From Opitutia bacterium ISCC 52 (GTDB taxonomy: Bacteria > Verrucomicrobiota > Verrucomicrobiia > Opitutales > UBA2995), in assembly GCA_014529675.2 (NCBI GenBank), contig CP076040.1:3181894-3245893 (forward strand): a stretch of DNA of 64,000 nucleotides. The letters run 5' to 3'. Position numbers and translations under genes: made by a program. The notes under the pieces were generated by a model. It was not told the DNA's origin and did not search any database. It saw only the letters and a list, made by a program, of their open reading frames with translations. This document shows positions 47,631-63,950 of the stretch, piece after piece (the stretch's first letter is position 1; every line of letters starts with the position of its first letter).

Positions 47631-48308
47631 ATGGAACGTTTTTTTGAGAAGAACCTAGACGATTTGCGGGTCAATTTGAACCGCATGGCGGAGCTTGCTT
47701 ATGCAAACGTAAACACGGCGGTTCAAGCATTGATCGATCGCGACACGGTGTTGGCACAACAGACAATTCAGGCCGACGAAGAAATCGATGAATTGAACAA
47801 GTGGGTTGATCATCACGTCGTCGAACACATCTCCCTCTGCTCACCGGTGGCATCCGATGTGAGAATGCTTTATACAACTATCAAAGGTTCCCGCGATTTG
47901 GAACGTACCGGTGATGAAGCCACAACGATCGCCAAACGCGCTCTTAAAATTATTCGTACTGGTTATTCGGGAGACTTGTTTGAAATCCCCGTCCTATGCA
48001 CCCAAGCCAGCAACTTGATTAACGAAGCCATGGGTTGCTTTCTCAAAGCAGATCTCGAGATCGCCATGGGTTTAAAGGCCAAGGATCGAGAGGTGGACAA
48101 GTTATACAAGCGTATAGACCAACAGATCAGTAAAAAGATCTCAGATGGGACGCTGGATCCCAAAGACGCTCCGGCTTTGATTGACCTCATGTTTATTGCA
48201 AAGTCGCTGGAACACGTGGGAGACCATGCCGTCAATATCACCATGGAAGTCATCTTCTACCTGACAGGAAGGGACGTTCGTCACCTCGAAGAGGTTAAGC
48301 GGGATTAG
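47631..48308 (+). CDS. phoU: phosphate uptake regulator PhoU
   Basis: PhoU links the Pst transporter to the PhoR/PhoB signal system and shuts down uptake when phosphate is ample. The 225-residue all-helical product has two repeats of the three-helix bundle, each with an E/D-x3-D metal-type motif: DEEIDELNKWVDHHVVEHI and KDREVDKLYKRIDQQI. RDLERTGDEA and LEHVGDHAVNI are the conserved helix motifs. It ends in a four-base overlap with the stop of the convergent PiT-like gene. The histidine kinase and response regulator are not in the window. Confidence 0.95.
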   Translation: MERFFEKNLDDLRVNLNRMAELAYANVNTAVQALIDRDTVLAQQTIQADEEIDELNKWVDHHVVEHISLCSPVASDVRMLYTTIKGSRDLERTGDEATTIAKRALKIIRTGYSGDLFEIPVLCTQASNLINEAMGCFLKADLEIAMGLKAKDREVDKLYKRIDQQISKKISDGTLDPKDAPALIDLMFIAKSLEHVGDHAVNITMEVIFYLTGRDVRHLEEVKRD

Positions 48309-49300
48309 AGTGATTTAATAAAGTGGATCAGCGCTACAAGCGCGATACTGGCCACCAAACCAATCGTCACTTTCCCCAGATCCATCACGACCATCTTGTT
48401 GAGCTTTTTGGACAGCTTTTTGCTGTCGAGACGAATGTTCAGCGCATACTCTCGGCCCGCCAGCATTCCAATAAATACCCAGGTAGTACTCATAGGAATA
48501 CTGTTAACTTCTTTAAAGTAGTAGAGAACGATCCCGAAGATAAGGTCAATGATCGTGGCCGAACGAATATCGGATGTGTTTCTTTTAGCACGAACGATGT
48601 GTTGGATTTTTCCACCACGCTGGTAAAAGATGTAGGCCAGTAATCCTAACAGGACCACAAGGGAAACGCCGAGCTCCAAGGCCGAGATTTTTCGTGGCAG
48701 GTAAACATAGATGTTAGCAAAATCCTGAGCCAACCATTGCGACCACAGAAATCCTGTAGAGCACCACTGAGCCAAAGTCCACCACTTCCTGGAATCGGGA
48801 TAATCGTCGAGGCTGTTGTTGAGAAACCGTTTCTCGATTGCTTTGGCGACTATAAAGTAGAAGACCAGCGCCGTAACAAACGCGACTCCATATCCGGAAA
48901 GCGATTTGATCAGCATATCTCCCAAATTACTGGGAGCAAAAAAAGTAAGGATCAGGAAGGTAGTGCTGACAGGTATGCCCAAGCGGGTAATGACCAATAG
49001 CACTACCGGCGGTAAAATATACCACCATTCAAAAGGATCCGCCACAGGATACTTCGGATTATCAAATCCAAAACCATCTTCAGCATCTCCAATCAGACGC
49101 GCGTAAGACACATCCCCATCATTGATTACCCATCCGTAAATCAGGGAGACAGCCATAATTGACCCCGCAAAAATCCACAAAACCCACCACTTCCTTTTAC
49201 TGTTGGAAGTCAGGAATGTGCCCAGAGTCTGGATCACATCATTTGCAACAACGGAATATGCAGCCAGCACAAACCCGAGGTACATTAGAAATGGAGTCAT
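48305..49300 (-). CDS. PiT-family (PHO-4) phosphate transporter-like protein
   Basis: PiT proteins are cation-coupled, low-affinity phosphate carriers. The 331-residue product has about eight hydrophobic segments and both halves of the family signature: ANDVIQTLGTFLTS near the N-terminus (family GANDVANxxGT) and GIPVSTTFLIL and NSIPMSTTWVFIGML (family PxSTTH). It is diverged in the first signature, lacking the Gly before AND, and carries a soluble loop at 60-85. Ending tail-to-tail with phoU, it pairs a low-affinity uptake route with the Pst system. Confidence 0.82.
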   Translation of the reverse strand: MTPFLMYLGFVLAAYSVVANDVIQTLGTFLTSNSKRKWWVLWIFAGSIMAVSLIYGWVINDGDVSYARLIGDAEDGFGFDNPKYPVADPFEWWYILPPVVLLVITRLGIPVSTTFLILTFFAPSNLGDMLIKSLSGYGVAFVTALVFYFIVAKAIEKRFLNNSLDDYPDSRKWWTLAQWCSTGFLWSQWLAQDFANIYVYLPRKISALELGVSLVVLLGLLAYIFYQRGGKIQHIVRAKRNTSDIRSATIIDLIFGIVLYYFKEVNSIPMSTTWVFIGMLAGREYALNIRLDSKKLSKKLNKMVVMDLGKVTIGLVASIALVALIHFIKSL

Positions 49301-49406: not shown

Positions 49407-50666
49407 CTAGTTCAAAACCACACGTATTCCCCGCCTCAGGTAGGTCGGCACATCCAGGTCGAACCCCTCATGCTCATTACGACCCGTCTCTTCGAAAAAA
49501 CCACGGTGCTCTTCCATGCCTTCGAAAATGAGCTCCTGTTGGATATTTGGAATAAGTTCCAATTGGCCCTTCTTCCGCGCATCCCCCGCTGAAACTGGAT
49601 TCCTGAGAGATCGTGAAGTCGTAACCGGCTTTCTAACGGGCTCTGGCTTTTCCCGCGGAGCAGGCGCCTTGTGAGCCGCTGGTTGAACTCCCCGAAAATT
49701 CCCACCCATGTCGGTGGTTCCCATGACGCAGATTTCGACCGTGTTGGTTTTTCCTTCGTCAATCACTGCGCCAAGAACGGTATTTTCCCGACTGCCAAAC
49801 TTCTCGGTCACAAAATTCATAATCTCATTCACTTGAGACATCGAGAGGTCGGTCCCCCCTACGATATTCACCAGCAGATTATCCGCCCGTTTTGAGAAAT
49901 CTGGAACGTGTAACAAGGGGCAAATGACCAGGTCGTCGAGCGCATCCTGAATAAAGTTGGGGCCCTGCCCGACTCCAAACCCAAACAAGGTCTTCGCACC
50001 TCGAATGCTGAAGACTTCACGCAGGGAAGAAATATCTACATTGATGAGGCCAGACTTCAGCAAGATGGCCCAAATAGACTTCACTCCTCGGGTAATCCAC
50101 TCATCCGCTTTCGAAAAGGCTCCCAGAACTGAATCCTGAGCCGACTCCTCCTGTAAGAGCATATCATTGGGCAACGGAATAACCGCGTCGGCGGTTGCAC
50201 GTAATTCTTTTAAAGCATTTTCAGCAGATTTAAAACGACGCTCTCCTTCGAAGGTGAATGGCATGTTTACGAAAGCGATTACCAATGCACCTCGTTCCTT
50301 GGCTACTTCGGCGATGACTGGAGAAATACCGGCCCCTGTTCCACCACCAAGACTTGCGACGATAAAGATGAGCTCAAAACCATCGACCATACGTGTGATG
50401 ATTTCAAGATCCGAGTCGGCAGCCTTACGGCCCAACTCAGAATCACCGCCTGTGCCAAGTCCCCGAGTCAGGTTTCTTCCAATCAAGTGCGTTTCTCCAA
50501 CCGGGGAATCAGAAAGGGTTTTCAGGTCCGTATTAACACAAGCCAAGCTCAGACCTTCCAGGTTCTCCATATCCATCCGGATACGATCAACCGCATTGTT
50601 ACCAGCACCGCCGGCCCCGATAACTTTTATCCGGATACTGCTTTCAAATAGATTTTGAGAGTCCAT
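49407..50666 (-). CDS. ftsZ: cell division protein FtsZ, divergent
   Basis: FtsZ is the tubulin-like GTPase that forms the division ring. The 419-residue product has GAGGAGNNAVDRI at the N-terminus, the GTP signature GGGTGAG at 107-113 (normally GGGTG followed by T or S, then G), NMPFTFEG and the T7 synergy loop NVDISSL at 209-215. In the E. coli protein the T7 loop is NVDFADV with catalytic Asp209 and Asp212; here the second aspartate is Ser214. The C-terminal tail ends in DVPTYLRRGIR, the ZipA/FtsA-binding type peptide. The length is normal. It overlaps ftsA by one base. Confidence 0.93.
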   Translation of the reverse strand: MDSQNLFESSIRIKVIGAGGAGNNAVDRIRMDMENLEGLSLACVNTDLKTLSDSPVGETHLIGRNLTRGLGTGGDSELGRKAADSDLEIITRMVDGFELIFIVASLGGGTGAGISPVIAEVAKERGALVIAFVNMPFTFEGERRFKSAENALKELRATADAVIPLPNDMLLQEESAQDSVLGAFSKADEWITRGVKSIWAILLKSGLINVDISSLREVFSIRGAKTLFGFGVGQGPNFIQDALDDLVICPLLHVPDFSKRADNLLVNIVGGTDLSMSQVNEIMNFVTEKFGSRENTVLGAVIDEGKTNTVEICVMGTTDMGGNFRGVQPAAHKAPAPREKPEPVRKPVTTSRSLRNPVSAGDARKKGQLELIPNIQQELIFEGMEEHRGFFEETGRNEHEGFDLDVPTYLRRGIRVVLN

Positions 50667-51883
50667 TACGCGCCAAATCCTAAGAGTTGTTTAAAGCCTT
50701 TGATCAATCGCGTACTCCGACTCTTCTCGGAGAAGCGCGAATCATCCTTGTAACTGAATCCAAAGTAAAGGAGGCCGAGCGCCGTGCTGAAATCCGGTCC
50801 TGCAAGATCAGATGCGACCCATGAAGGATTCTCCCCCTGAGTCACAGGAAGGCCGAACACCTTTTCGCCAAGTTTTTCGATATCCTTTAGTTTTGAGGTT
50901 CCACCCGTCAAAACAACCGACGAGATTTCGCGGCTGGAGCAATACTCAGCAACATGCTTGTCAGCTCGGATTAGCTTAAACAGCTCATCCACCCGCGCAT
51001 TAATGATCTGACAGACCCCGCCGCGAGAAATGGAACGGTCGCCGATAGTCAAATCACCTATAAGCATCACCTTGTCATTCTTCGATCTGGGCTCGAGAGT
51101 GGCTTTGCCGTTCTTGACTTTCAGCATCTCGGCCAATTTTGCGTTCGTCCGTAGGCCGATGCTTAAATCGTTGGTAATATGATCCCCCCCGACGGCAATA
51201 ACCCCGGTATGGACCACGTATCCATTTTTAAATAACACGTAATCAGTGCTCCCGCTTCCGATATCGATTACTAATACACCACTTTGGCGTTCCTCATCGG
51301 TCGTAACCATTTTACCCGAAGCAAGACTACTCACAATCAGGTCTTCCACCTGGAGGCCAAATCCGTTGATGATGTGAATGGAATCACTCATTTTCTTCAC
51401 CGAACCGTGAATATTCCAGTAACCCACCCCTAACTTGTGGCCTTCCAAATGCTCGGGATCGTCCACCAATTCGCCATCGAGCAAGAATCCAGCTCGAATG
51501 TGGTGAATAATTGCCCGGTCTTCAGGAAGTTGCTTACTCTTAGCTTCTGTGAGTAATCGCCGAATATCAGCTCGTTGGACTAAATTGTCGGAGGATTTAA
51601 CGGTAACCTCCGCGTCGTTGTAGAAGGTCTCGAGGTGCATTCCGGATTGGGCGAGGTAAACCGCCTCCACCCGCACACCAGCGCTTTCTTCTGCTGCCAT
51701 TATGGCTGCGTGAGTACAGTCACTAGCCGCATTGAAATCGATAATTTCGCCTTTCTTAACACCGCGACTGGAAGAGACTCCCATGCCAACAATATTCAGC
51801 GTTTTTTCGTTAACAATCTCGCCAACAAGGACGACGACTTTACTAGTACCGATCTCGACAGCTCCGATGATTTTGGAGTTCAC
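50666..51883 (-). CDS. ftsA: cell division protein FtsA
   Basis: FtsA is the actin-like protein that ties FtsZ filaments to the membrane. The 405-residue product shows the phosphate 1 region VEIGTSKVVVLVGE, the SHS2 (1C) subdomain region, phosphate 2 LVIDIGSGSTDYVLF, the adenosine motif VVLTGGTSKLKDIE, and a C-terminal amphipathic helix LIKGFKQLLGF. The normal VGE-type GIDIGT opening reads AVEIGT. Length fits. It stands between ftsQ and ftsZ in the usual order; its stop shares one base with the ftsZ start. Confidence 0.94.
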   Translation of the reverse strand: MNSKIIGAVEIGTSKVVVLVGEIVNEKTLNIVGMGVSSSRGVKKGEIIDFNAASDCTHAAIMAAEESAGVRVEAVYLAQSGMHLETFYNDAEVTVKSSDNLVQRADIRRLLTEAKSKQLPEDRAIIHHIRAGFLLDGELVDDPEHLEGHKLGVGYWNIHGSVKKMSDSIHIINGFGLQVEDLIVSSLASGKMVTTDEERQSGVLVIDIGSGSTDYVLFKNGYVVHTGVIAVGGDHITNDLSIGLRTNAKLAEMLKVKNGKATLEPRSKNDKVMLIGDLTIGDRSISRGGVCQIINARVDELFKLIRADKHVAEYCSSREISSVVLTGGTSKLKDIEKLGEKVFGLPVTQGENPSWVASDLAGPDFSTALGLLYFGFSYKDDSRFSEKSRSTRLIKGFKQLLGFGA

Positions 51884-51904: not shown

Positions 51905-52834
51905 TTAATAAAAGGAGTTAGGAAAAGAGTTGTTAGCAAACTCCACCGTTGGTTGGTCCAAGAGGGAGAGGTTCACACGAAAAACGGACGATACAGTAGG
52001 CCCCCCTTCACTGTCGAGGATGTATTCAAGTTTTTCCAACTGCTCAGGGAAGTTTTCTGGACTGAATAAAATCTCATTTACGCCGGTAGATCGCACTCGA
52101 ATGTATCCCTCGGTAAAGGTCTCTGCCATGATCAGCTGATCGGCAAATATGACCTCCCATCCACGAGATAAATCTGGGTATTCAGTTCGTGCAACTTGCA
52201 ATAGCTCTGAAAGAAAAGGAACCGAATCGATGGAATGATATCCAATATCACTCTTATGAAGATTTACACCAGCCAGGAAAGGCAACCGACCTACTACACT
52301 GTTCGGAAATTTAATGTTTCTAAAAACAAAGCCTTCATCATCAACCAATAGTATTTCGGAGACTCCATTGGGTTGCTTAGCCTTTATCCGAAAGACAGGA
52401 AATCGTTCGTGCACTTTAACACACAGGGTATTCGGAAATCTCCGCTCTATGGATACGTCTTTGATTTGAGGAAATCGCTCAACGGACTTTTTCAAATCAC
52501 TCATATCCACTTGCATGAGTCCCAAATTTTGCTCCAAACCCATGCGAAATTCGATCCAGGCTTTGGGAAGAACTCCATCTGTCTCGATATCCAGGTTTAT
52601 AAAGGAAGCAGCAGCCGCATGTATGGTCGGTGCCTTGGGAGTGTTCACAATATAGTAACCGAGTAAGGACAATGCCAATACAGCACATCCAGTTCCCAAG
52701 CTGATCGTAGCAAAGTGAAACAGTTTTCGCATACGTACGATTTGAGATTCACGAGTAATCGCCTGTTTACCCGCACGCTGGGGTATTTTTTTCCAGGAGG
52801 TTTTAGGACGAGTTGGTTTTTTCTTTTTAGGCAT
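51905..52834 (-). CDS. ftsQ: cell division protein FtsQ
   Basis: FtsQ is a bitopic division protein that links early and late divisome parts. From ATG 52834 it has 309 residues: a short basic cytoplasmic tail (KKKKPTRPKTSWKK), one membrane helix (about 45-62; ISLGTGCAVLALSLLGYYI), and an extracytoplasmic POTRA-type domain with VSIERRFPNTLCVKVHERFP, followed by the beta domain with GVNEILFSPENFPEQLEKLEYI. An in-frame start seven codons earlier is possible but lacks support. The gene lies between murC/murB and ftsA. Confidence 0.88.
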   Translation of the reverse strand: MPKKKKPTRPKTSWKKIPQRAGKQAITRESQIVRMRKLFHFATISLGTGCAVLALSLLGYYIVNTPKAPTIHAAAASFINLDIETDGVLPKAWIEFRMGLEQNLGLMQVDMSDLKKSVERFPQIKDVSIERRFPNTLCVKVHERFPVFRIKAKQPNGVSEILLVDDEGFVFRNIKFPNSVVGRLPFLAGVNLHKSDIGYHSIDSVPFLSELLQVARTEYPDLSRGWEVIFADQLIMAETFTEGYIRVRSTGVNEILFSPENFPEQLEKLEYILDSEGGPTVSSVFRVNLSLLDQPTVEFANNSFPNSFY

Positions 52835-52861
52835 GAGATGGTAGCAGTTGAGCAAATAATG

Positions 52862-55204
52862 TTACCCCGACGATACAGGTTCCGTGGTACAAGAATCTTC
52901 AGGTAAAGCATCCAGGTAGTTCTTCCAATCGTCTCCAAATAGAATAACCTCAGGCTCAAGTTGATAGCCTGTTGCACGGTATACTTTTTGGCGCAATTGA
53001 TTGATTAAAGAAATGACATCCGAGGCGGTAGCGTTGCCTTTGTTGATTACGAAATTGGCATGAATATCTGACACTTCAGCTGCTCCAACGCCAAAACCTT
53101 TTAATCCCGCTTCATCCACAAGCTTACCCGCAGCTGAACCTTCGGGGTTCTTAAAAGTACAACCTGCACTGGGCTGACGAGGCTGGGATTCTTTTCGAGA
53201 ACTCTGGTAGGTATCCATGGTATGCTGAATGGATTCGAGACTCGAAGCATCTCCCGCTTTGAAAATAACCGCTAATCCGATGGAATCATGAAGCTCTCGA
53301 CAATGCCGGTAACCAAAATGGAGTTGCTCAAACGGAACGGAATACACCTTACCATGGAAATCCATGAGCACGACTTCAGAGATGACATCGGAAATCCATC
53401 CGCCCATCGCTCCTGCATTCATACGCAGTGCACCGCCTACATTGCCAGGTACACCTTCCAGAAATTCAAATCCTGCGCGCTCGTGCTTCCTCATGAAGCC
53501 ACAAAGCTCTTTCAAGCGAACTCCGGCCCGGGCACGAATACGACCATCCTCTAAAACTTCGGTTTGCTGAAAAAATGGCTGCGTCAAACGTATGACTAAT
53601 CCCCTTACTCCAGAATCCGGTACAATTAAGTTGGATCCACGTCCTAATATCGACACAGGCAAGGATGCCTTGGAAGCATACCGCAAAAGTAGTTGTAGAT
53701 CTGTTTCACTCGCTGGTTCGGCGTAGAAATCCGCATTTCCTCCCACTCGCAATGTCGTTTTGTTTGCCAAAGGCTCATCCTGCTTAAAAACGGATTCAGC
53801 AGATAAACCCTCGCGCGCTGCGGTCGCAAAATCAAAGGGTAGCAACGGATTGGCAATTTCCAGTTGGTTTACGTACTTTGCCGCCACATCTTGAATGTTA
53901 CCGGCCCCGAGAAATAAGAGGACTCCTTTTTTAGGTGTGATAATCTCTAGTCGCTCCAATACAGCTGATTCATCCGGACAGAAAAAGGATTCACGGTGAG
54001 GGGCCATCTCAGAACAAGTTTCAAACAAATGAGTCCCGTATCCGCCGAGAATGGGTTCCTCTCCTGCTCCATAGACCTCCATCACGATAAGCTGATGAGC
54101 TTTGGATAACACTTCAGCGAACTCATGTTTAAACTGGAGCGTGCGCGAGTATCGGTGAGGTTGAAAAACCACAATAAGAGGACCTGCACGCCGACTAAGC
54201 GCTTCAAACAATCTGCGAATTTCAGTCGGGTGGTGCCCATAGTCTTCGATGACGCAAAACCCGTCCGTTTCATAGATAACTTCCTGCCGACGCCAAAGCC
54301 CTGGAAACTCTTTGAACATCGATGGAGTAATTTCTGCAAAATCGTTCACCACAGTAAGGGCGGCCAATGCATTATGAGCGTTAAAGAGCTCATCAAAAGG
54401 AACGGGCAGAGAACAATCTGGCAACCGACCTCCAAAGCGTAAGGTATGATTGTCGAAATGAATGATTCGAGCATCCCCACTCTCCCCAAAGGTATGAACA
54501 TCCGCTTTGAGTCCTTCCAAGTGCAACTCCTTGGAGATTTCGCAGGAAGCATTAATGAAAACCTGTTCCTGGGTACGATCAATTAAGCCCTGAAAGGTAT
54601 GCACACACTTCCGTTTTGTCTTATAGAAGTCGGCATGATCCCAATCGACATTTACAATGAGGCTAATGGAGGGTTCGAAAGAATGAATACTTCCGTCACT
54701 CTCATCGACTTCGATAATCAGCCAGGGGCTATCCCCCTCGAAGTGACCGGGCAAAATAGAATCGTCGGAGAACAATCCTCCTAAAATAAAGTTACAGGGG
54801 AAGCCCGCTTGACCTAACGCATAGATCATCAATCCACAAGTCGTCGTTTTCCCATGAGAGCCCGCAACCGCAATGGTTTTAAAACGTTTACTGAGCGTTC
54901 CGAGAAATTCTCCCCTTCGCATGATAGGTGCACCCACCTTACCTGCTGATTTCAAGGCGGGATGAGCGGGACCAATGGCATTGGAGTAAATAATACCGTC
55001 TACCGACTCGAGGTCAGACTTCTTACTAAGTGCAACACCTGCATCGATAAGCATCTGGTGAACCCGCGGATGAAAGTTATCATCCTCTCCCGTGATTTTG
55101 CAGCCAGCCTGTTTTAAGAACATAGCCAGAGGTGCCATTCCCATTCCCCCCACACCCAGCATGTGGAAATGTATTTTGGAAAAATCTGATTCGCGAGTAA
55201 TCAT
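52862..55204 (-). CDS. murC/murB: MurC-MurB fusion: UDP-MurNAc-L-alanine ligase and UDP-MurNAc dehydrogenase
   Basis: Two steps of precursor synthesis are joined here. The ligase part (about 1-465) has HMLGVGGMGMAPLAM, AVAGSHGKTTT (P-loop), EVDESDGS and EDYGHHPTEI, all MurC motifs. The reductase part (about 470-780) has LANKTTLRVGGNADF, ILGRGSNLIVPDSGV, FLEGVPGNVGGALRMNAGA and QPSAGCTFKNP, in which a Cys (about 681) stands at the proton-donor position that is Ser in E. coli. The final Glu is in LEPEVILFG. A MurB/MurC fusion has been studied in Verrucomicrobium spinosum. MurB would act on UDP-GlcNAc-enolpyruvate and feed the product straight to MurC. The gene overlaps murG by four bases. Confidence 0.95.
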   Translation of the reverse strand: MITRESDFSKIHFHMLGVGGMGMAPLAMFLKQAGCKITGEDDNFHPRVHQMLIDAGVALSKKSDLESVDGIIYSNAIGPAHPALKSAGKVGAPIMRRGEFLGTLSKRFKTIAVAGSHGKTTTCGLMIYALGQAGFPCNFILGGLFSDDSILPGHFEGDSPWLIIEVDESDGSIHSFEPSISLIVNVDWDHADFYKTKRKCVHTFQGLIDRTQEQVFINASCEISKELHLEGLKADVHTFGESGDARIIHFDNHTLRFGGRLPDCSLPVPFDELFNAHNALAALTVVNDFAEITPSMFKEFPGLWRRQEVIYETDGFCVIEDYGHHPTEIRRLFEALSRRAGPLIVVFQPHRYSRTLQFKHEFAEVLSKAHQLIVMEVYGAGEEPILGGYGTHLFETCSEMAPHRESFFCPDESAVLERLEIITPKKGVLLFLGAGNIQDVAAKYVNQLEIANPLLPFDFATAAREGLSAESVFKQDEPLANKTTLRVGGNADFYAEPASETDLQLLLRYASKASLPVSILGRGSNLIVPDSGVRGLVIRLTQPFFQQTEVLEDGRIRARAGVRLKELCGFMRKHERAGFEFLEGVPGNVGGALRMNAGAMGGWISDVISEVVLMDFHGKVYSVPFEQLHFGYRHCRELHDSIGLAVIFKAGDASSLESIQHTMDTYQSSRKESQPRQPSAGCTFKNPEGSAAGKLVDEAGLKGFGVGAAEVSDIHANFVINKGNATASDVISLINQLRQKVYRATGYQLEPEVILFGDDWKNYLDALPEDSCTTEPVSSG

Positions 55205-56331
55205 CCTTGCGTGTGCGGAATGGGCAGAGCTTGGCCATTTAAACTATGAGAAATCATCTCTTCCAATGATTCTGCAATACGCTTTGCTTCATCAGGCCGA
55301 TCCAGCGACTTCAACTGCTTTCTCATAGTATCGCTGTTAGAGTCATTCCAGAGGAGTGCGTTCACCTCATCCATCAAGGTAGTCAGCTGAGTTTCCTGCA
55401 CGATTCGAGCCGCATCCTTTTGCACGACAAACTCAGCATTAGCCGTTTGATGATCATCACGCGCAAATGGATAGGGTATCAGAATCGCCGGTACACCACA
55501 GCGGATGATTTCACCGATACTTCCAGCACCGGCTCGTGACACAACCACATCTGCCGCAGACAAGACAGCAGGCATCGAATCAGAAAACGGAACAAACCTT
55601 GAACGCACCGTGCCGTGAGTCGTGGTTTTGATTTCCTGTTCACCAGGAAGTTCACTCCGCATGCCTGTCAAACAATACAGGGACACACCTTTTTGGGCTA
55701 AGTCGTCCATGGACTCCTTGGCCCAGTTATTGAGTGCAGAGGCTCCTTGGCTACCTCCGAATACCACTAAGAGTCTCTCGGCTGGTTGGATATTTAGCGT
55801 TTTCCTCGCATCATCCCGGCTCATCGATACGAATTCTTTTCGCAGAGGTAATCCAGCGAATTGAATTTTACTGGAATCGGTTCCTGGGATCGTCACTTCA
55901 TCCGGAAGAAATACCCGCTTCGCAAATCGACTCAGGAACCGGTTAGACCTTCCCACAATACGATTCGCTTCATGCAGTGCGAATGGAATGCCCTTAACAT
56001 ACCCGGGTAGCGCAATCCCCGCAGTCACGAATCCACCAAAGCCTAAAATCAGGTCCGGCTTGATTCTAGATAACAAGCGCAGCGCAAAGAAAAATGCGGT
56101 CAACTGCACCCAGATAAACTTAAGTAGTTTTACAGGATGCCAGGCAAAGGGAGCACCAGGAGCATCGACGAACTCCAAAGTCGGATAGTTTTGAATCAAT
56201 CGAGCATCGACCTTCTTCCGCGAAACTACCAAAGAGCAATGGTGACCGCGTTCGAGCAGCTCTTCAGCAATAGCGATACCTGGCGTCAGGTGACCCCCTG
56301 TTCCGCCGCAAACTATTAGCACTTTTGCCAT
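55201..56331 (-). CDS. murG: MurG glycosyltransferase (lipid II synthesis)
   Basis: MurG moves GlcNAc from UDP-GlcNAc to lipid I at the inner face of the membrane. The 376-residue product opens with IVCGGTGGHLTPGIAIAEEL (family GGTGGHxxP, donor side), has GFGGFVTAGIALPGY with the second glycine loop, FGGSQGASALNNWA in the C-terminal half and VSRAGAGSIGEIIRCGVPAILIPYPFARDDHQTANA, which binds the nucleotide sugar. It is the normal length. Its ATG overlaps the ftsW stop as TGATG, and its end overlaps the murC/murB start. Confidence 0.95.
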   Translation of the reverse strand: MAKVLIVCGGTGGHLTPGIAIAEELLERGHHCSLVVSRKKVDARLIQNYPTLEFVDAPGAPFAWHPVKLLKFIWVQLTAFFFALRLLSRIKPDLILGFGGFVTAGIALPGYVKGIPFALHEANRIVGRSNRFLSRFAKRVFLPDEVTIPGTDSSKIQFAGLPLRKEFVSMSRDDARKTLNIQPAERLLVVFGGSQGASALNNWAKESMDDLAQKGVSLYCLTGMRSELPGEQEIKTTTHGTVRSRFVPFSDSMPAVLSAADVVVSRAGAGSIGEIIRCGVPAILIPYPFARDDHQTANAEFVVQKDAARIVQETQLTTLMDEVNALLWNDSNSDTMRKQLKSLDRPDEAKRIAESLEEMISHSLNGQALPIPHTQG

Positions 56332-57491
56332 CAGCCCGTTATTTCGACTAGTTTCCTTCGTTCACTTCGCATGGGAAGACTTTCCCAACTTCGAAGACAA
56401 TTGATGAGTACGCCCGTAAAGACACACATCACTACTAAATTGGATCCACCGTAACTGATGAAAGGCAGGGACATCCCCTTAGTCGGCAACAACCCGGTCA
56501 CCACCCCCATGTTGATTAGGGCCTGTAGCATGATCATCAAAAGAGACCCCAACACCAGTAGCGCCTGAAACATCGAGGGCGCCCTCCGCATGGATAAAAT
56601 AACCGTGGTGAATATGACCAGGAAAAGCACCACCACCAAACAGGTAACCATGAACCCAAACTCTTCCCCAATAATGGAGAAGATGAAATCGGTGTGGGCC
56701 TCTGGAAGAAAACTGTTTTGAGATCGGCCATTGCCGGCTCCCAATCCACTGAACCCACCATTACCAAAAGCCATTTGCCCTTGGTGGAGCTGATAGGTTG
56801 CGTCGTCTTTATTTCCCTCCACATCGAGGAAGGATAACAAACGGCGAAGACGCACTGGATTCTGAAAAATCAGATATAGGAACAGTGTCCCAGAACTAAT
56901 CACCGTAGGAATCAAATAGGTCAATCTGGCCCCAGCCAAATAGAGTAGCATCAAGCCAACGGCACCATACAAGGCGCAGGTCCCGAAATCGGGCTCCAAA
57001 ATGATGAGAATACAAAACACCCCGATAATCGCCAACGGTATGATGAATCCTCTCATCAAGGTTTTAAGAAAGCGTTGGTTTGCACTCAAGTAATAGGCCA
57101 TGAGGAAAACAAAGGGTATCTTGGCAAATTCTGAGGGTTGAAAACCTATAGACCCAATGGTGATCCAGCGACGACTTCCATTAATCGGTTCAGCAATGGC
57201 GGGGATGAGTACCGCTATTAAAAAGACAATTCCAAGGACTGCCCCAATAGGTATAAGTTTCTTGGGTCGTTCTAGATCGATCATAGAGGCAGCCACACCG
57301 GCTACGACAGCTATGCCGAGCCACATGATTTGCCGCTCAAGGAATCGATAGGAATCTGCATCCAGCGATTGGGTAGCGCTGAAGATAGAGATAAGACCAA
57401 TCAGAACCAGCGTAGAGACGCTGATTACAATGACTAGGCGTTGGTAGAATGAATGACCAGTGTTAGCAGTTTCTTTGGTAGCTTTGCTCAT
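56331..57491 (-). CDS. ftsW: FtsW-type SEDS peptidoglycan glycosyltransferase
   Basis: FtsW polymerises lipid II in the septum together with a class B PBP. The 386-residue product has about ten membrane segments. It carries the SEDS features SEFAKIPFVFLMAYYL, ILEPDFGTCALYG with the catalytic Asp side (LEPD), the large loop between helices 7 and 8 with TYQLHQGQMAFGNGGFSGLG, EAHTDFIFSIIGEEFGF and GLLPTKGMSLPFISYGGSNLV. All are intact. It lies downstream of the LysM lipoprotein gene and upstream of murG. Confidence 0.94.
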   Translation of the reverse strand: MSKATKETANTGHSFYQRLVIVISVSTLVLIGLISIFSATQSLDADSYRFLERQIMWLGIAVVAGVAASMIDLERPKKLIPIGAVLGIVFLIAVLIPAIAEPINGSRRWITIGSIGFQPSEFAKIPFVFLMAYYLSANQRFLKTLMRGFIIPLAIIGVFCILIILEPDFGTCALYGAVGLMLLYLAGARLTYLIPTVISSGTLFLYLIFQNPVRLRRLLSFLDVEGNKDDATYQLHQGQMAFGNGGFSGLGAGNGRSQNSFLPEAHTDFIFSIIGEEFGFMVTCLVVVLFLVIFTTVILSMRRAPSMFQALLVLGSLLMIMLQALINMGVVTGLLPTKGMSLPFISYGGSNLVVMCVFTGVLINCLRSWESLPMRSERRKLVEITG

Positions 57492-57518: not shown

Positions 57519-58670
57519 TCAATCTTGCGGGACGACCTCCACTTCCGGAATGTCCTCCAAGCTATTGAATACGGAATCATCGAACAAGGTTGGGGTGGAA
57601 ACGGGTCGGGATGCAGGCTGTGAAGATGGAGGAGGTGTCGTTGGGGTAGAGGCCGGTTGAGCAACACCCAAGAAAATTTTCAGTTTTTGGCCGACGCGAA
57701 TCTTGCGTGCATCACTGATGCCATTGTCCTTCATCAGTTGCGAAGTCGTTATGCCATACTTCCGAGCGATAATGCTGGGATTTTCTCCTGCGGCGACCAC
57801 ATGAAAGATTCCATCAAAATCACTGGCGGCCGGCTGAGGTGTTGGCGCCGAATAAGTAGTCGTTGGCGTAACGGTCGGCTGCGGCGTAGAACTCGTCGCA
57901 GTTGAAGAACGACTATTCACTGGAATTGTCAGACTCTGATTGAGTTGGATCACATCAGACCGGAGACCATTCGCAGATTTGATAGCGCTCACAGTCGTAT
58001 TAAAATTTCTGGCAATTTTAGAGAGCGAATCTCCTTTCACGACCGTGTAGCTTTCGGAAGTAGTAGTGGGCGCAGCCGAATAGGTAGGCGCTGCAACAGA
58101 GGTAGCTCCACCGGTATCGGAAGGAATCACCAAAGACTGCCCCGCATTGATCGTGGAGTTTTGGATGAGTCCATTCGCCTGAAGCAGGTCGTTGAGAGAA
58201 ACACCAAAGTCGCGAGAGATCTTCCAGAGACTATCTCCTTTGGCCACGACATACTCAATCGCAGGGGAAGTCACTGTGGGATCGACCAACGGAGTCAGTA
58301 TTTCCTCATTAAGCATTGGATTAATTTCAGGCGTAGCTTGATTAGCATACCCACTGTCGCTGGGACGGCGCGGTGCAGAACGCTCACCTCCACGATTGGG
58401 GCTGGGAACGTTATAGGCCTCTGAACCGGTGTTAAAGGCTGGATCGAGCGGGGTGCTTTGCTCAGGTGTATTGACCTCGGTCACCACTAGGTTGTCGTCC
58501 TCAACTGGGCGATTCGGTTGCGCATAGCTGTCGTAAATGGAGCCTCCGGTGGAACTCGGGCTGGTATCGCCTGCTGATGGTCCGCTGCTTGAACAGGCGG
58601 ATAATAAATACAATCCGGCGATGACAACGACGTGAAACGCGAGAACGGAGATAAATACGTGGGCTTTCAT
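57519..58670 (-). CDS. lipoprotein with three LysM domains
   Basis: LysM modules bind the GlcNAc-MurNAc backbone of peptidoglycan. The 383-residue product has a lipoprotein signal with lipobox LLSAC (Cys26), a Ser/Thr/Pro-rich linker (27-135), and LysM domains at about 139-184 (EYVVAKGDSLWKISRDFGVS), 207-251 (YTVVKGDSLSKIARNFN) and 288-334 (FHVVAAGENPSIIARKYG), separated by Thr/Pro/Ala-rich linkers. No peptidase or amidase domain follows. It sits inside the dcw operon between murD and ftsW, where no LysM protein belongs in the standard order, so a role in septal wall binding is likely but unproven. Confidence 0.9.
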   Translation of the reverse strand: MKAHVFISVLAFHVVVIAGLYLLSACSSSGPSAGDTSPSSTGGSIYDSYAQPNRPVEDDNLVVTEVNTPEQSTPLDPAFNTGSEAYNVPSPNRGGERSAPRRPSDSGYANQATPEINPMLNEEILTPLVDPTVTSPAIEYVVAKGDSLWKISRDFGVSLNDLLQANGLIQNSTINAGQSLVIPSDTGGATSVAAPTYSAAPTTTSESYTVVKGDSLSKIARNFNTTVSAIKSANGLRSDVIQLNQSLTIPVNSRSSTATSSTPQPTVTPTTTYSAPTPQPAASDFDGIFHVVAAGENPSIIARKYGITTSQLMKDNGISDARKIRVGQKLKIFLGVAQPASTPTTPPPSSQPASRPVSTPTLFDDSVFNSLEDIPEVEVVPQD

Positions 58671-58678
58671 AGTAAATA

Positions 58679-59959
58679 TTAGAGGGTTAATTGTAAGTTG
58701 ACCTTAAGCTCGGACACCACTTTCTCAAAACATTTCCCTCTTTCTTTGTAATGTCGAAAAGGTTTTTGGCTGGCGAATCCCGGACTGAACAGAACGACGC
58801 CTCCCGATGAAGCTTCACCGTAAGCTCCTTTGATCGAATTCTCTAAAGATTCGAAGGTGTCGCACGGGACTCCAAGGCCCTTAAAAACCTTGGCGACTTC
58901 CTCTGCAGTTTCACCTGAGAGAAAGGCTTTTTTAATGCGGTGACCGATTCGTTGGGCGAAAGCATCGATGCGGCCCCCTTTATGCCGACCTCCTCCGATC
59001 CAATAAACAGGTTGATGAAAGTGTTTTAATGCGGCTTCAGCCGATGAAAAATTGGTTGCCTTTGAGTCGTTCCAAAATTCGATGCCATTAATCTCAGAGA
59101 CCGGGGCCAGGCGGTGTGGGCTTTGACGGAACGATCGAACCGAATCGTGCAACATCTCAGGATCGTATCCCCAAGCTCGAAAGAGAACAGCCGCTAACTG
59201 GAAATTTTCGCGCTGAGGTTTAAGATTAAAAATGGAATGCTTTGGAACTCGAATATAGGGACTATCGACCACGTAAGTATCACGAGGTAGGGAATGTCCA
59301 AAATCGCAGTAAGCAGACAGCACTTCCTTGCCCATGTAGACCGACTTGGCCTTGGCAACATTCAGAAGCTTCGCCTTGGCCAGGAAGTAACTTTCCATAT
59401 CCCCATAGCGATCCAAGTGATCTTCAGAAAAATTCGACCAGACAACCGAATCAGCTCGAAAGCGTTTCATAAGCTCCGCCTGAAAAGAACTGACTTCAAC
59501 GACGGCCCAAGCATCGGGATCGTTTGTCTTAGTGAGTAACTTCGCAAATGGATACCCAGTATTCCCTACCGCAAAAGCATTATGGCCTGCGTAATTCAGG
59601 GAATGCGTAATAAACTCAACCAGAGTTGTTTTTCCATTGGTTCCGGTGATAGCGAGCACCCGACCGTGCCAAAGCATAGAGGCGAGGTCTAACTCTCCCA
59701 TAATTTCACAACCGGCAGCTTCGGCAGCTACCAACCATGGATGCTCCAACTCAAAGCCTGGACTCACAATCACAAGGTGATGTTTAGAAGCTTGAGTTTT
59801 TGTAAATGAATCAGGGAAGTCGGAATTCTGCTCATCGAATACAACACTGGAACCACCCAGATGATCCACTAAATCAACCACAGCTTTGCCACTCACTCCG
59901 GCGCCGAGAATGGCAACGGGCTTCTTCAGCCAAGCTTGGATGTCTTTAGAAATCTCCAT
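58679..59959 (-). CDS. murD: UDP-N-acetylmuramoyl-L-alanine:D-glutamate ligase
   Basis: MurD adds D-Glu to the nucleotide precursor. The 426-residue product shows VAILGAGVSGKAVVDLV (N-terminal Rossmann domain), AITGTNGKTTLVEFI (P-loop), VVEVSSFQAELM, NFSEDHLDRYGDMESY and EFWNDSKATNFSSAEAAL, the family block for the substrate and metal. The C-terminal domain has YWIGGGRHKGGRIDAF and VVLFSPGFASQKPFRHYKERG. All are standard. It is followed after eight bases by the LysM gene and overlaps nothing upstream; six bases separate it from mraY. Confidence 0.95.
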   Translation of the reverse strand: MEISKDIQAWLKKPVAILGAGVSGKAVVDLVDHLGGSSVVFDEQNSDFPDSFTKTQASKHHLVIVSPGFELEHPWLVAAEAAGCEIMGELDLASMLWHGRVLAITGTNGKTTLVEFITHSLNYAGHNAFAVGNTGYPFAKLLTKTNDPDAWAVVEVSSFQAELMKRFRADSVVWSNFSEDHLDRYGDMESYFLAKAKLLNVAKAKSVYMGKEVLSAYCDFGHSLPRDTYVVDSPYIRVPKHSIFNLKPQRENFQLAAVLFRAWGYDPEMLHDSVRSFRQSPHRLAPVSEINGIEFWNDSKATNFSSAEAALKHFHQPVYWIGGGRHKGGRIDAFAQRIGHRIKKAFLSGETAEEVAKVFKGLGVPCDTFESLENSIKGAYGEASSGGVVLFSPGFASQKPFRHYKERGKCFEKVVSELKVNLQLTL

Positions 59960-59965
59960 GGTAAT

Positions 59966-61066
59966 TTAGCGCAATTTCAGCGTCCCTAGGCCTGCAAGAG
60001 CAAATGCAAGTGAAAGTATCCAGAAACGTATTACGACTTTGGACTCAGGCCAACCTTTTAATTCAAAATGATGATGAATAGGTGCCATTTTAAAAACACG
60101 TTTTTTCCGGGTTTTGTAAGAGAATACCTGAATGATCACCGATAGGGCCTCCATCACGAAAATTCCCCCAACAATAACCAAGGTAAGTGGCTGGTGAACC
60201 ATGAATGCAATGACTCCAATCAAACCACCCAAGGCTAAGGATCCCGTATCTCCCATAAAGACTTCTGCAGGATGTGAGTTGTACCACAAAAATGCCAATC
60301 CTGATCCTACCAGGCACCCACAGATAATACTTAACTCCCCTACTCCAGGCACGTAACTAATAAATAAATAATCAGCAATTATCAGATTACCTGTGGAATA
60401 AGCCATAATGGCATAAACCAATGCCACTGAGATAGTGCACCCAATCGCCAAACCATCAATTCCATCGGTTAGATTGATAGCATTGGACGATCCAACTAAT
60501 ATGAAAAAGAGGAAGACAAAAAGGAACGGAAGGGGTAAGGCCAGGACCAGTGGGTCTTTAAAGAACGGAACCCACAATTCTTTTACCTTAGTCGCACTGT
60601 CAGGGTGAATAAGCAGCATGCTCAAAGCAGCTACCGTAATGAGCGTCTGCCAGATAATTTTCTGCTTCTTACTAAGACCCGCACTATTCTTTTTCGTTAC
60701 CTTTGCATGGTCATCTAGAAAGCCTAACACGGTAAGCCCGGTATACACGACCAAAGCAGTCAGAACATACACATTGGGCTCAGCCCAAAGGAAGGTACTA
60801 AAAGTCACCGAAAGGTAGATCATCAATCCACCCATGGTTGGAGTGCCTTTTTTACCTGCATGCAATTCTGCAAGATTTCCCACTTCTGATTTATCACGAA
60901 GCGATTGATGCAACTTAAACCGTCCCAAGTGCTCAAACAGCGGACCAGCAATAATGAATCCCAACACCAACGCGGTGGCAGAACCGAAAAGCGCACGGAA
61001 TGTAATATAGCGAAACAACCGTAGCGGGCCCCAGTATTGCTCAAAATCTGCCAGATAGCTTAACAT
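59966..61066 (-). CDS. mraY: phospho-MurNAc-pentapeptide transferase
   Basis: MraY transfers phospho-MurNAc-pentapeptide to undecaprenyl phosphate to make lipid I. The 366-residue product has about ten membrane segments. The aspartate-rich FLDDHAKV, NAINLTDGIDGLAIG, FMGDTGSLALGG and MAPIHHHFELKGWPESKVVIRFW motifs, which bind Mg and the uridine substrate, are complete. GKKGTPTMGGLM stands near the N-terminus. Its 5' end overlaps the murF stop by seven bases. Confidence 0.96.
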   Translation of the reverse strand: MLSYLADFEQYWGPLRLFRYITFRALFGSATALVLGFIIAGPLFEHLGRFKLHQSLRDKSEVGNLAELHAGKKGTPTMGGLMIYLSVTFSTFLWAEPNVYVLTALVVYTGLTVLGFLDDHAKVTKKNSAGLSKKQKIIWQTLITVAALSMLLIHPDSATKVKELWVPFFKDPLVLALPLPFLFVFLFFILVGSSNAINLTDGIDGLAIGCTISVALVYAIMAYSTGNLIIADYLFISYVPGVGELSIICGCLVGSGLAFLWYNSHPAEVFMGDTGSLALGGLIGVIAFMVHQPLTLVIVGGIFVMEALSVIIQVFSYKTRKKRVFKMAPIHHHFELKGWPESKVVIRFWILSLAFALAGLGTLKLR

Positions 61067-62454
61067 GTCGATTCAACAGGCCGGAAAATTTCCTTCAGTT
61101 TATGATAGATGGTTTCCAAAGCATAGCTGCGACTCCCTTTTAAGAAAACAGCTCCTTCAAGGTGACGGAGCTCCTTAACGACTTCCGCCGGATCTTTAAA
61201 TACTTTCACATGCTCTTCGTCTCGACCAGCGGCACGGAATCCAGAAAGGAATCCATCCACCTCATCCCCCGTCAGATAAAGACGGTCAACAGAACGAAGT
61301 TTAAAGGACCGTCCAAGCTCTCGATGATATTCCTCCGTGTACTCACCCAGTTCCTTCATCCCACCAATCACATAATAACGCGGCGTCTCCTCAGGCGTGG
61401 TGGAATTAAAGAACTCAATGGAATCACGCATGCTCGCCGGATTGGCGTTGTAGCAATCGATAAAGAAATCCAATTCACCCAATTGGTCCCGCTCACATCT
61501 CATGTCAGTCGGCTGCCAATTTTCCAAATGGTTTTGCAGGGTATATGTGTCCAGACCGAGTTCTAAAGCCAGTGCGAGGGAAAGTACAATATTGCGAGCC
61601 ATGCCATCACTCGTCCGACCTACTGTGAAGCTCAGTACCGCTCCACCCTTGGGACGCAATACGATGTCTGTTTTGTCCAACTGCTGGTCCAGGCTGAAAT
61701 CGATGAAAGTGGAAGCCTTCGGATATTCTCTTCCCGGTTCAGGTTTTCCAACGATTAGGCAGGGTGTAGTTATGGATGCAAAAGCAGGAAACCTGAAACA
61801 TTGAACCGGAAGCACAGATAGCTTTTTGGTTGCCTTTACTAATTCTGCTTTCTCTTCGGCCACACCTTGCAGCGAATGAACCCCTTCAAGATGAACCGGC
61901 GCGACCGTGGTAATAATCGAATAATCCGGCTGGAGAATACGCGACAGGGATGCAATCTCACCGGTTGCATTCATTCCCACCTCCACAACGGCCTGCTTGT
62001 AGTTCGGGCGCAGACGAAGTAAGGTCAAAGGAACTCCCAAGTGGTTATTGAAATTGGCAAAGGTCTTTAGGGTATCTTCACCGAGCAGCAAGGCCAACAT
62101 CTCCTTGGTCGACGTCTTACCACAACTACCCGTAATACCTATAGCCGTTCCGGAAAATTCGATACGCTGTTGGATCGCCAAATCCTGTAATGCCTTCTCA
62201 ACATCGGCAACAATGAGTTGAGGCAGATCGATATGCGCTTGGGCCTTCGAAACAAGCGCTGCTGACGCACCCCTTTCTTTGGCTTGTTCCACAAAATCGT
62301 GACCGTCTCGAGCGTCTGATGTGATAGCCACAAACATCTGACCCGACTGGAGTTTCCGCGTATCGATCATGAGATCATCCACCGATTCTGGCGGAGTACC
62401 TAGCCAATGACCTCCCGTCCAATCTGAAAAATGCTGCGTACTCAGGGGCGTCAC
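61060..62454 (-). CDS. murF: UDP-MurNAc-tripeptide:D-Ala-D-Ala ligase
   Basis: MurF adds the D-Ala-D-Ala dipeptide and finishes the cytoplasmic pentapeptide. The 464-residue product has an N-terminal UDP-binding domain (DDLMIDTRKLQSGQMFVAI), AIGITGSCGKTSTKEML as the P-loop (family GSNGKTT variant), VVEVGMNATGEIASLSRI, DCYNANPASMRDSIEFF and the C-terminal GGMKELGEYTEEYHRELG. The P-loop residues Cys and Ser in GSCGKTST are unusual but keep the key Gly-Lys-Thr. It overlaps the murE stop by four bases. Confidence 0.94.
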   Translation of the reverse strand: MTPLSTQHFSDWTGGHWLGTPPESVDDLMIDTRKLQSGQMFVAITSDARDGHDFVEQAKERGASAALVSKAQAHIDLPQLIVADVEKALQDLAIQQRIEFSGTAIGITGSCGKTSTKEMLALLLGEDTLKTFANFNNHLGVPLTLLRLRPNYKQAVVEVGMNATGEIASLSRILQPDYSIITTVAPVHLEGVHSLQGVAEEKAELVKATKKLSVLPVQCFRFPAFASITTPCLIVGKPEPGREYPKASTFIDFSLDQQLDKTDIVLRPKGGAVLSFTVGRTSDGMARNIVLSLALALELGLDTYTLQNHLENWQPTDMRCERDQLGELDFFIDCYNANPASMRDSIEFFNSTTPEETPRYYVIGGMKELGEYTEEYHRELGRSFKLRSVDRLYLTGDEVDGFLSGFRAAGRDEEHVKVFKDPAEVVKELRHLEGAVFLKGSRSYALETIYHKLKEIFRPVESTC

Positions 62455-63950
62455 TTTTTTCTGCCCTTAACCAGTTGTTTCATTTCAAGCAAATCGCGTG
62501 CAACCACCCGATCATCGAACGGTACAATTCGATCTTTAAATTCCTGCATGGTCTCATGCCCTTTTCCTGCAATGAGCACGGTATCGCCGGGTTCAGCCAT
62601 GTCCAAAGCTCGACTAATGGCCGAACGACGATCTGCAATATACTCTACTTCGTCCGGTTTGGTGACCCCTTCTCGCATGTCGGACAAAATAGACTCCACG
62701 GATTCACCACGTGGATTATCAGAAGTTGCACACACAAAATCTGCGTGCTTTTGCGCCACTTCCATCATAGATTTCCGCTTGTCCCGGTCACGATTACCAC
62801 CGCAACCAAAGGTTACGATCAGCCTACCTCGCGTAATTTCACGAAGCATGCCCAATGCTTTGTCTAAAGCATCATCGGTGTGAGCATAGTCGACGAACAC
62901 ATCAAATCCTTCGGCACCTTCGATACGTTCCATTCGCCCCGGCACTCCGGCAAATTTTTTCAACGCAGGAAACACACTGTGCAAGTCCAAGCCAACTCCC
63001 TGGCAAACTGCCAATGCGGCCAGAATGTTACTTAAGTTATAATGACCAGCTAGTGGCGTTGAAAGGCTCTTGCTCTCCCCATTCCAATGAAGCGTGAACA
63101 TCGATCCTTCGTGATAACAGGTGTATTCCCCTAAGTAGATATCTGCATCCGAATTATTAAGCGAAAAGGTAATCACCTTCGTATCTTCGGGAAGATCAGT
63201 AACCAGTCGTCTGCCAAACTCATCGTCGAGGTTTACAACAGATACCTTCGGGATCTTTCCTACTTCGCCTGTAAAAAGCCGACGCTTGACCTGAAAGTAG
63301 GTCTCAAAATCCTTGTGATAGTCGAGGTGATCACGAGTTAGATTGAGAAAAACGGCGACGTCGAATTCAGCCCCAAAAATACGTTGTTGATCGATGCCAT
63401 GACTACTCACTTCCATCACACCTCGTTGACATCCCCCGTCAGCTATTTGCTTAAGCAAAGCAAACGTATCAATCGCTTCAGGTGTTGTTTTGAAGGAAGG
63501 GATGGTGCGCTCTCCAAGATCATATTGGACCGTACCGATCAATCCTGTCTTTTGGGTCTTGGAGGCGCTATTCAATAAACTCTGCACCAAATACGAAACC
63601 GTGGTCTTTCCATTCGTTCCAGTTATCCCAATCAGGTCCAATTTTTTATCGGGAGTGCCATAAAAGTGACGCGCAACGCGCGCAACTACTTCGCGTATAT
63701 TGTCAACCTGAATGGTTGTCGTCTGAGGATAAAGGCGATCACTTTCTGAAACAACAGCTACAGCCCCACGATCGATAGCTTCCTCTACGAAATAGGTTCC
63801 GCTGGTACGCAGACCTGGGATGGCAAAAAAAACAGCTCCAGGTATAACGCGACGGCTATCAGTCACCAGAGCCGATACAGGTCGATTCAAGTTTCCAACA
63901 TGCTTTACGCGCAGTGATTCTGGAAAGAGTTTCTGGAGGGTTGGTTGCAT
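62451..63950 (-). CDS. murE: UDP-MurNAc-L-Ala-D-Glu:meso-diaminopimelate ligase
   Basis: MurE adds the third residue of the stem peptide. The 499-residue product has VSALVTDSRRVIPGAVFFA, GITGTNGKTTVSYLVQSLL (P-loop), TTPEAIDT, MEVSSHGIDQQR, FLNLTRDHLDYHKDFETYF and VTFGCGGNRDRDKR. The discriminating motif is TSDNPRGE (about 411-414 for DNPR), which marks meso-diaminopimelate rather than lysine use, so the wall is of the Gram-negative A1gamma type. It is the first full gene of the dcw run in this window. Confidence 0.95.
   Translation of the reverse strand: MQPTLQKLFPESLRVKHVGNLNRPVSALVTDSRRVIPGAVFFAIPGLRTSGTYFVEEAIDRGAVAVVSESDRLYPQTTTIQVDNIREVVARVARHFYGTPDKKLDLIGITGTNGKTTVSYLVQSLLNSASKTQKTGLIGTVQYDLGERTIPSFKTTPEAIDTFALLKQIADGGCQRGVMEVSSHGIDQQRIFGAEFDVAVFLNLTRDHLDYHKDFETYFQVKRRLFTGEVGKIPKVSVVNLDDEFGRRLVTDLPEDTKVITFSLNNSDADIYLGEYTCYHEGSMFTLHWNGESKSLSTPLAGHYNLSNILAALAVCQGVGLDLHSVFPALKKFAGVPGRMERIEGAEGFDVFVDYAHTDDALDKALGMLREITRGRLIVTFGCGGNRDRDKRKSMMEVAQKHADFVCATSDNPRGESVESILSDMREGVTKPDEVEYIADRRSAISRALDMAEPGDTVLIAGKGHETMQEFKDRIVPFDDRVVARDLLEMKQLVKGRKK

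Follow-up and report, generated by a model that had tools for sequence, protein, structure and literature searches.

The FtsZ encoded in the window, i.e. the whole analysed stretch of 64,000 nucleotides from Opitutia bacterium ISCC 52, has serine in place of the second catalytic aspartate of the T7 loop (Asp212 in Escherichia coli). The original prediction had treated this loss as a trait of a single FtsZ; it was found to be order-wide in Opitutales instead, and to be one case of an erosion of the catalytic loop which extends over the phylum Verrucomicrobiota. A substitution private to the window genome was rejected, since Opitutales relatives are likewise without an acid at position 212.

Identity of the window FtsZ and its gene cluster

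The ftsZ gene lies at 49407..50666 on the minus strand as an ORF of 419 AA with an ATG start; the plus-strand frame over the same positions is broken by stops. The genome consists of one contig of 4.8 Mb with a single match each to TIGR00065 and PF00091, and the window protein is its sole FtsZ and its sole match to a tubulin/FtsZ model. Both domains scored above their cut-offs (PF00091, 141.4 bits with a cut-off of 33; PF12327, 44 bits with a cut-off of 27). The best NCBIfam match was the ftsZ equivalog TIGR00065 with 269.6 bits, below the curated cut-off of 295.2, which is a naming threshold failed by most of the phylum. An AlphaFold model with 38 aligned sequences had a mean pLDDT of 79.5, a disordered tail and values of 93-95 around the T7 loop. 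Compared with the first solved target, the model gave a TM-score of 0.91 at 2.0 A. Solved FtsZ structures were at the top of the Foldseek search and 50/50 of the matches among those listed were FtsZ, which places the predicted structure in the FtsZ fold.

The C-terminal tail DLDVPTYLRRGIRVVLN (49410..49460, minus strand), by its resemblance to other FtsZ tails a putative FtsA-binding peptide, is conserved in the family: of 14 ends compared, 12 have the tail, and the other two (L106 and L037) end early, apparently at contig ends. The tail DLDVPTYLRRGIR is kept across the window's family. No second FtsZ or tubulin was found in 8 genomes of the family, as each of them gave one match to a tubulin/FtsZ model (8/8); a second FtsZ or tubulin doing the work was thus rejected. 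When E. coli FtsZ was used as query against viral contigs, no match was obtained.

The genes of the dcw cluster follow in the order mraZ, mraW, a 132-AA ORF, a transpeptidase, murE, murF, mraY, murD, a triple-LysM protein, ftsW, murG, murC-murB, ftsQ, ftsA and ftsZ, with the start of the cluster beyond the window edge and ftsZ as its last gene. The order ftsQ-ftsA-ftsZ inside the cluster is the one expected of the orthologous FtsZ family. The cluster genes given below with coordinates are all on the minus strand. Directly upstream of ftsZ, ftsA (50666..51883) matched PF14450 and, above the cut-off, TIGR01174 (290 bits). It is preceded by ftsQ (51905..52855; PF08478 POTRA_1), a murC-murB fusion forming one gene of 780 AA (52862..55204) and murG (55201..56331), for which TIGR01133 gave 240.7 bits, slightly below the cut-off of 250.25. 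A murC-murB fusion is also reported for Verrucomicrobium spinosum (PMC12283558). By domain and gene order, ftsW (56331..57491; PF01098) and, from low to high coordinates, murD, mraY, murF and murE (58679..63950; Mur ligase and Glycos_transf_4 domains) were named. Between murD and ftsW, a protein with three LysM stretches (57519..58670; PF01476) is encoded; to our knowledge, a LysM gene is not usual at that position. The penicillin-binding transpeptidase is ftsI by position, the 132-AA ORF after mraW had no Pfam match, and the scanned genes of the cluster did not include a ddl. On the other side of ftsZ, a membrane protein of 331 AA (48305-49300, minus strand; no Pfam match) adjoins phoU and a phosphate-type ABC-transporter operon. 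Its stretch ANDVIQTLGTF resembles PiT phosphate transporters, and we assume that it may be a diverged one.

The T7 loop in the window, in Opitutales and across the phylum

The T7 (synergy) loop NVDISSL (residues 209-215; 50022..50042, minus strand) was compared with the family motif NxDxx[D/E]. For numbering, E. coli FtsZ from MG1655 was used as the reference, which aligns with the window protein without gaps across the loop. Asn209 of the window corresponds to Asn207 of E. coli, the retained Asp211 (codon 50034..50036, minus strand) to Asp209, and Ser214 (codon 50025..50027, minus strand) to the catalytic Asp212; the predicted exchange is thus confirmed by the alignment. Published FtsZ motifs are NxDxx[D/E] for hydrolysis and GGGTG[T/S]G for binding (PMC12583498), and NVDISS fails the former, which is that of canonical hydrolysing FtsZ. 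The window protein was classed with the orthologous FtsZ family but outside the canonical hydrolysing FtsZs.

The T4 GTP-binding loop GGGTGAG (residues 107-113; 50328..50348, minus strand) has Ala112 at the place of E. coli Thr110, and this alanine for Thr/Ser had been pointed out as a second deviation. The residue is present as described and departs from the stricter GGGTG[T/S]G, but it is no anomaly: GGGTGAG matches the PROSITE signature PS00227, [SAG]GGTG[SAT]G (quoted in PMC1845146), and is a permitted variant which says little. In the 44 Opitutales loci described below, the E. coli 110 position is occupied by Ser (34), Ala (7), Val (1), Thr (1) and Gly (1). Because PS00227 allows alanine and the position varies in Opitutales, Ala112 was set aside. 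As for the expectation that all other features are intact, the remaining nucleotide-site motifs looked at were present, as was the dcw cluster from mraZ to ftsZ.

The Opitutales set comprised 37 FtsZs, namely that of the window genome and those of 36 of the 41 other genomes of the same order with a match (G039, G108, G175, G207 and G210 were left out). Six loci (L032-L037) are duplicates of genus or family loci and were excluded from the survey, the 44-locus count and the trees; the pairs L032/L104, L033/L100, L034/L105 and L037/L106 were compared and are identical, and L035/L102 and L036/L101 were judged duplicates by identical tails and equal distances. An acid at 212 was found in 0/37 of these FtsZs and Asp209 in 37/37. 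When the genus and family members were added to the survey sequences (44 loci), the residue at 212 was Thr in 24, Ala in 10, Ser in 8, Gly in 1 and Gln in 1. No replacement chemistry is conserved at the position, and a catalytic role taken over by Ser or Thr was rejected, as the position can equally hold Ala, Gly or Gln. A compensating new acid within the loop was rejected as well: none is conserved across the order in the loop or at the start of helix H8. Another species of the window's genus (G294) has the identical NVDISSL. Six species of this genus were compared, two of which read N-D-S and four N-N-T at positions 207/209/212; the latter four, with Asn for Asp209 and Thr for Asp212, have lost both acids. 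At several sites, nearly all of the 37 Opitutales carry a new charge which the controls rarely have (Arg191, Lys222, Arg255, Lys256 and Asp258, in E. coli positions), e.g. Lys or Arg at 222 in 36/37 and Asp or Glu at 258 in 36/37. These order-specific charges are possible interface changes accompanying the loop.

For the phylum, a profile search of 288 evenly drawn Verrucomicrobiota genomes found FtsZ in 281, with 23 above the TIGR00065 cut-off, which was passed by 13/14 control genomes. From the 281, 159 FtsZs were read, which corresponds to roughly one for each genus (146 genera, 62 families); the 30 matches with the highest scores were chosen first and the remainder were hand-picked by genus. 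Five of the 159 loci were dropped for gaps at the loop, leaving 154 with all three loop positions. Asn207 was found in 68 of the 154, Asp209 in 112 and an acid at 212 in 72; the full NxDxx[D/E] set is present in 14/154, spread over 11 of the 62 families. The rest of the class, without Opitutales, has Asp209 in 1/20 and an acid at 212 in 18/20, and here Asp209 is mostly replaced by Gly and Asn207 often by Arg or Lys (e.g. GLVKLGLDDL). Other lineages have Ala, Pro or Ser for Asn207, or Arg at 212. The alignment of the phylum that had been proposed together with the prediction thus bore out the loss of Asp212, but not as the only loss, since other lineages lose Asn207 or Asp209. The equivalent of Glu138, which we take to be a GTP-contacting residue, was retained in all 154 sequences.

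In the 24 control FtsZs, Asp was found at 209 and at 212 in 24/24 and Asn207 in 22/24, and given these controls the substitution is beyond chance. The controls came from Pseudomonadota, Actinomycetota, Bacillota, Bacteroidota, Spirochaetota and archaea and consisted of E. coli, one archaeon and 22 loci chosen for diversity among the 60 plasmid records listed out of 117; the set was hand-picked, not random, and Omnitrophota are absent from it.

At the lower end of the scores, nine loci (L069 and L092-L099, from G083, G008, G042, G208, G246, G265, G252, G179 and G194; families f33, f9 and f35) gave FtsZ matches of only 29-67 bits, and their T7 loop had no confident alignment. No FtsZ model match was obtained in 7/288 genomes of the phylum. 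Both may reflect an extreme stage of the same decay or a division protein of another kind. In four genomes of family f12 (G187, G190, G199 and G234), two or three FtsZ model matches per genome were found, and the extra matches are possibly bacterial tubulins or FtsZ paralogues. MinC is an antagonist of FtsZ. Its model PF03775 matched in 0/46 genomes of the order and class, in which the Z-ring may be placed by another system, but as MinC is also absent from 8/14 control genomes, no inference was drawn.

Relaxation by site and history of the losses

Per-site counts were made for the 40 sites with an identity of 95% or more among the controls. The 173 rows of these counts include the six duplicates L032-L037, five further genus loci, two family loci and L038. 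By frequency of loss, Asp212 ranks fifth of the 40 sites (retained in 66/169), behind G314, T110 (mostly to Ser), L189 (mostly to Ile) and G149. Asp209 was retained in 119/169 rows, and Asn43 and Asn24 are often changed in the phylum too. Strongly retained sites are Glu138 (170/173), Pro134 (173/173) and Gly19 (171/171). In agreement with earlier authors, FtsZ is relaxed as a whole in the phylum, and the catalytic loop with it, but not several core residues of the GTP site; among the near-invariant sites the T7 loop is not singled out and is only partly special.

Trees were built without the loop columns, and families f33, f35, f9, f24, f16 and f13 were left out for weak alignment. With FastTree (165 rows), all 37 Opitutales formed one clade (SH 97), as did 16 rows of the rest of the class (SH 99), from which four rows of f9, f13 and f16 had been left out. 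The fewest changes needed on this tree were 18 at 207, 15 at 209 and 12 at 212. With IQ-TREE, 70 chosen rows were used: Opitutales (21 rows) were supported with 100/99, the other class clade (15 rows) with 100/97 and the phylum (60 rows) with 100/100 against the controls, and the fewest changes were 9 at 207, 4 at 209 and 4 at 212. The simplest account is that Asp212 was lost once before the order radiated and Asp209 once in the rest of the class, with more losses elsewhere. The two groups of the class are not adjacent in the FtsZ trees, and trust in such trees is therefore limited.

Consequences for GTP hydrolysis and division

In filaments of FtsZ and tubulin, the GTPase site of a subunit is completed by the T7 loop of its neighbour, and we take Asp212 of FtsZ to correspond to position 254 in the T7 loop of tubulin. 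In microtubules, Glu254 in the T7 loop of alpha-tubulin is catalytic, and Lys254 of beta-tubulin leaves GTP uncut (PMC13394414). In tubulin, the inactive interface is confined to the one within the heterodimer, whereas in FtsZ, a homopolymer, all interfaces would be affected. In E. coli, hydrolysis of GTP by D212A is much slower; over-expressed beside wild-type FtsZ, this mutant gives filament bands like those of unmodified cells, but wider, and D212G is cited as functioning in division (all PMC4383033). For D212G, the GTPase is almost tenfold lower, with below 1% also cited in the same study, and its rings are static instead of treadmilling (PMC7320174). In one study, D212G without suppressors does not replace FtsZ and does not complement an ftsZ null (PMC5405962); static FtsZ is therefore not simply harmless. 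These mutants lack the same carboxylate with the rest intact, hydrolyse slowly and still polymerise. They are laboratory point mutants, whereas the loss in Opitutales is natural and fixed in the order. A natural FtsZ with low GTPase is reported for Ca. Thiosymbion oneisti, but its catalytic residues are reported as conserved, so that the cause is not the loss of a T7 acid (PMC8953583).

From the E. coli D212A and D212G data and the tubulin T7 254 rule, we infer slow GTP hydrolysis and slow filament turnover, with filaments close to static, in Opitutales FtsZ, and judge this to be rather probable. The window FtsZ would be the single working FtsZ of the cell, with a weakened T7 loop. Binding of GTP, polymerisation and tethering by FtsA would proceed as usual, and the loop inserted into the neighbour's GTP would lack the carboxylate of Asp212, so that GTP would be cut slowly. 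Slow hydrolysis would give slow filament turnover and slow treadmilling, and other factors would presumably recycle the filaments.

Alternatively, Asp211 together with altered interface residues could hold the water or ion, and hydrolysis would run at a normal rate. This compensated catalysis seems rather unlikely, although several counts speak for it. Asp209 is kept in 37/37 Opitutales, which suggests that selection still maintains some catalysis in the order; in the rest of the class the pattern is reversed, with the acid kept at 212 (18/20) and Asp209 in 1/20. Most sequences of the phylum retain one acid, as neither is present in only 9/154 (4/142 without the six weakest-aligned families), and the new charges, e.g. 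at E. coli 222 and 258, are nearly fixed in the 37 Opitutales. Against it stand the four of six species of the window's genus that read N-N-T, the lack of a new acid conserved across the order in the loop or at the start of helix H8, and the E. coli mutants, in which loss of D212 alone suffices to slow hydrolysis (PMC4383033, PMC7320174). The tendency to keep one acid is striking in the counts, but it was not significant in an independent-pairs test, which allows for relatedness and had too few informative pairs; selection making the losses at 209 and 212 mutually exclusive was thus suggested by the counts and not supported by the test.

The gene is constrained. Between the window and the nearest relative compared, dN was 0.037 and dS 1.78 (near saturation), giving a dN/dS of about 0.02; two species of the sister genus gave a dN of 0.055, a dS of 0.31 and a dN/dS of about 0.18. 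Hence, ftsZ is under purifying selection. TraDIS in V. spinosum found ftsZ and ftsA essential (PMC12283558). Because of the purifying selection, the tail conserved in the family and the essentiality in V. spinosum, the window FtsZ very probably works in the cell; the original prediction of a probably functional protein is well backed by orthology and constraint. It is very improbable that FtsZ is a decaying relic in cells divided by another machinery, like those of Planctomycetota and Chlamydiota: FtsZ diverges fast throughout the phylum and scores very low or is absent in some families, but the purifying selection, the complete dcw cluster with adjoining ftsA, the conserved tail, Glu138 in 154/154 and the essential ftsZ of V. 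spinosum (PMC12283558) argue against it. An error in sequence, frame or alignment is next to inconceivable and was refuted by independent genomes, given that another species of the genus has the identical loop, that the loop aligns without gaps and that 44 loci show the same class of substitution.

The marked divergence of verrucomicrobial FtsZ was already known (PMC1845146, PMC9871819), as was its accelerated evolution in M. infernorum and Prosthecobacter (PMC2474590). In the FtsZ of V. spinosum, eight odd positions were marked and the protein was named canonical (PMC1845146). This FtsZ resembles that of the window in belonging to the same phylum, in its divergence, in its dcw cluster, in binary fission and in an essential ftsZ (PMC1845146, PMC12283558). 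A difference lies in its relatives in the rest of the class, which mostly lose Asp209 and Asn207, not Asp212. Family f12 of the survey appears to be Verrucomicrobium-like, from its open frames of 597-693 AA compared with the 673 AA reported (PMC1845146). In the accessible text of the open-licence PMC literature, no prior report of a loss of the hydrolysis motif in Opitutales or in most of the phylum was found. The erosion of the catalytic loop across Opitutales and the phylum would thus be new, whereas the general divergence of FtsZ was known.

The dependence of division on GTP hydrolysis by FtsZ and on treadmilling is disputed, and impaired laboratory mutants have been the main means of studying it. 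Verrucomicrobiota provide a natural experiment carried out several times: Asp212 is missing in one order, Asp209 in most of the remaining class, and both in some species of one genus. No other member of the superfamily was found beside FtsZ in the 8 genomes of the window's family. Targeted mutagenesis is reported for V. spinosum (PMC12283558), which is genetically tractable, so that the phylum itself offers a direct test of the question. Neither the published FtsZ hydrolysis motif nor ideas for inhibitors resting on it generalise to Verrucomicrobiota. The findings suggest that Opitutales divide with FtsZ filaments which cut GTP slowly or not at all. More tentatively, the FtsZ of the phylum may be turning into a filament which binds GTP and hardly hydrolyses it, each lineage having lost a different part of the loop; assembly and turnover of the Z-ring and guidance of wall synthesis would then proceed without treadmilling driven by hydrolysis.
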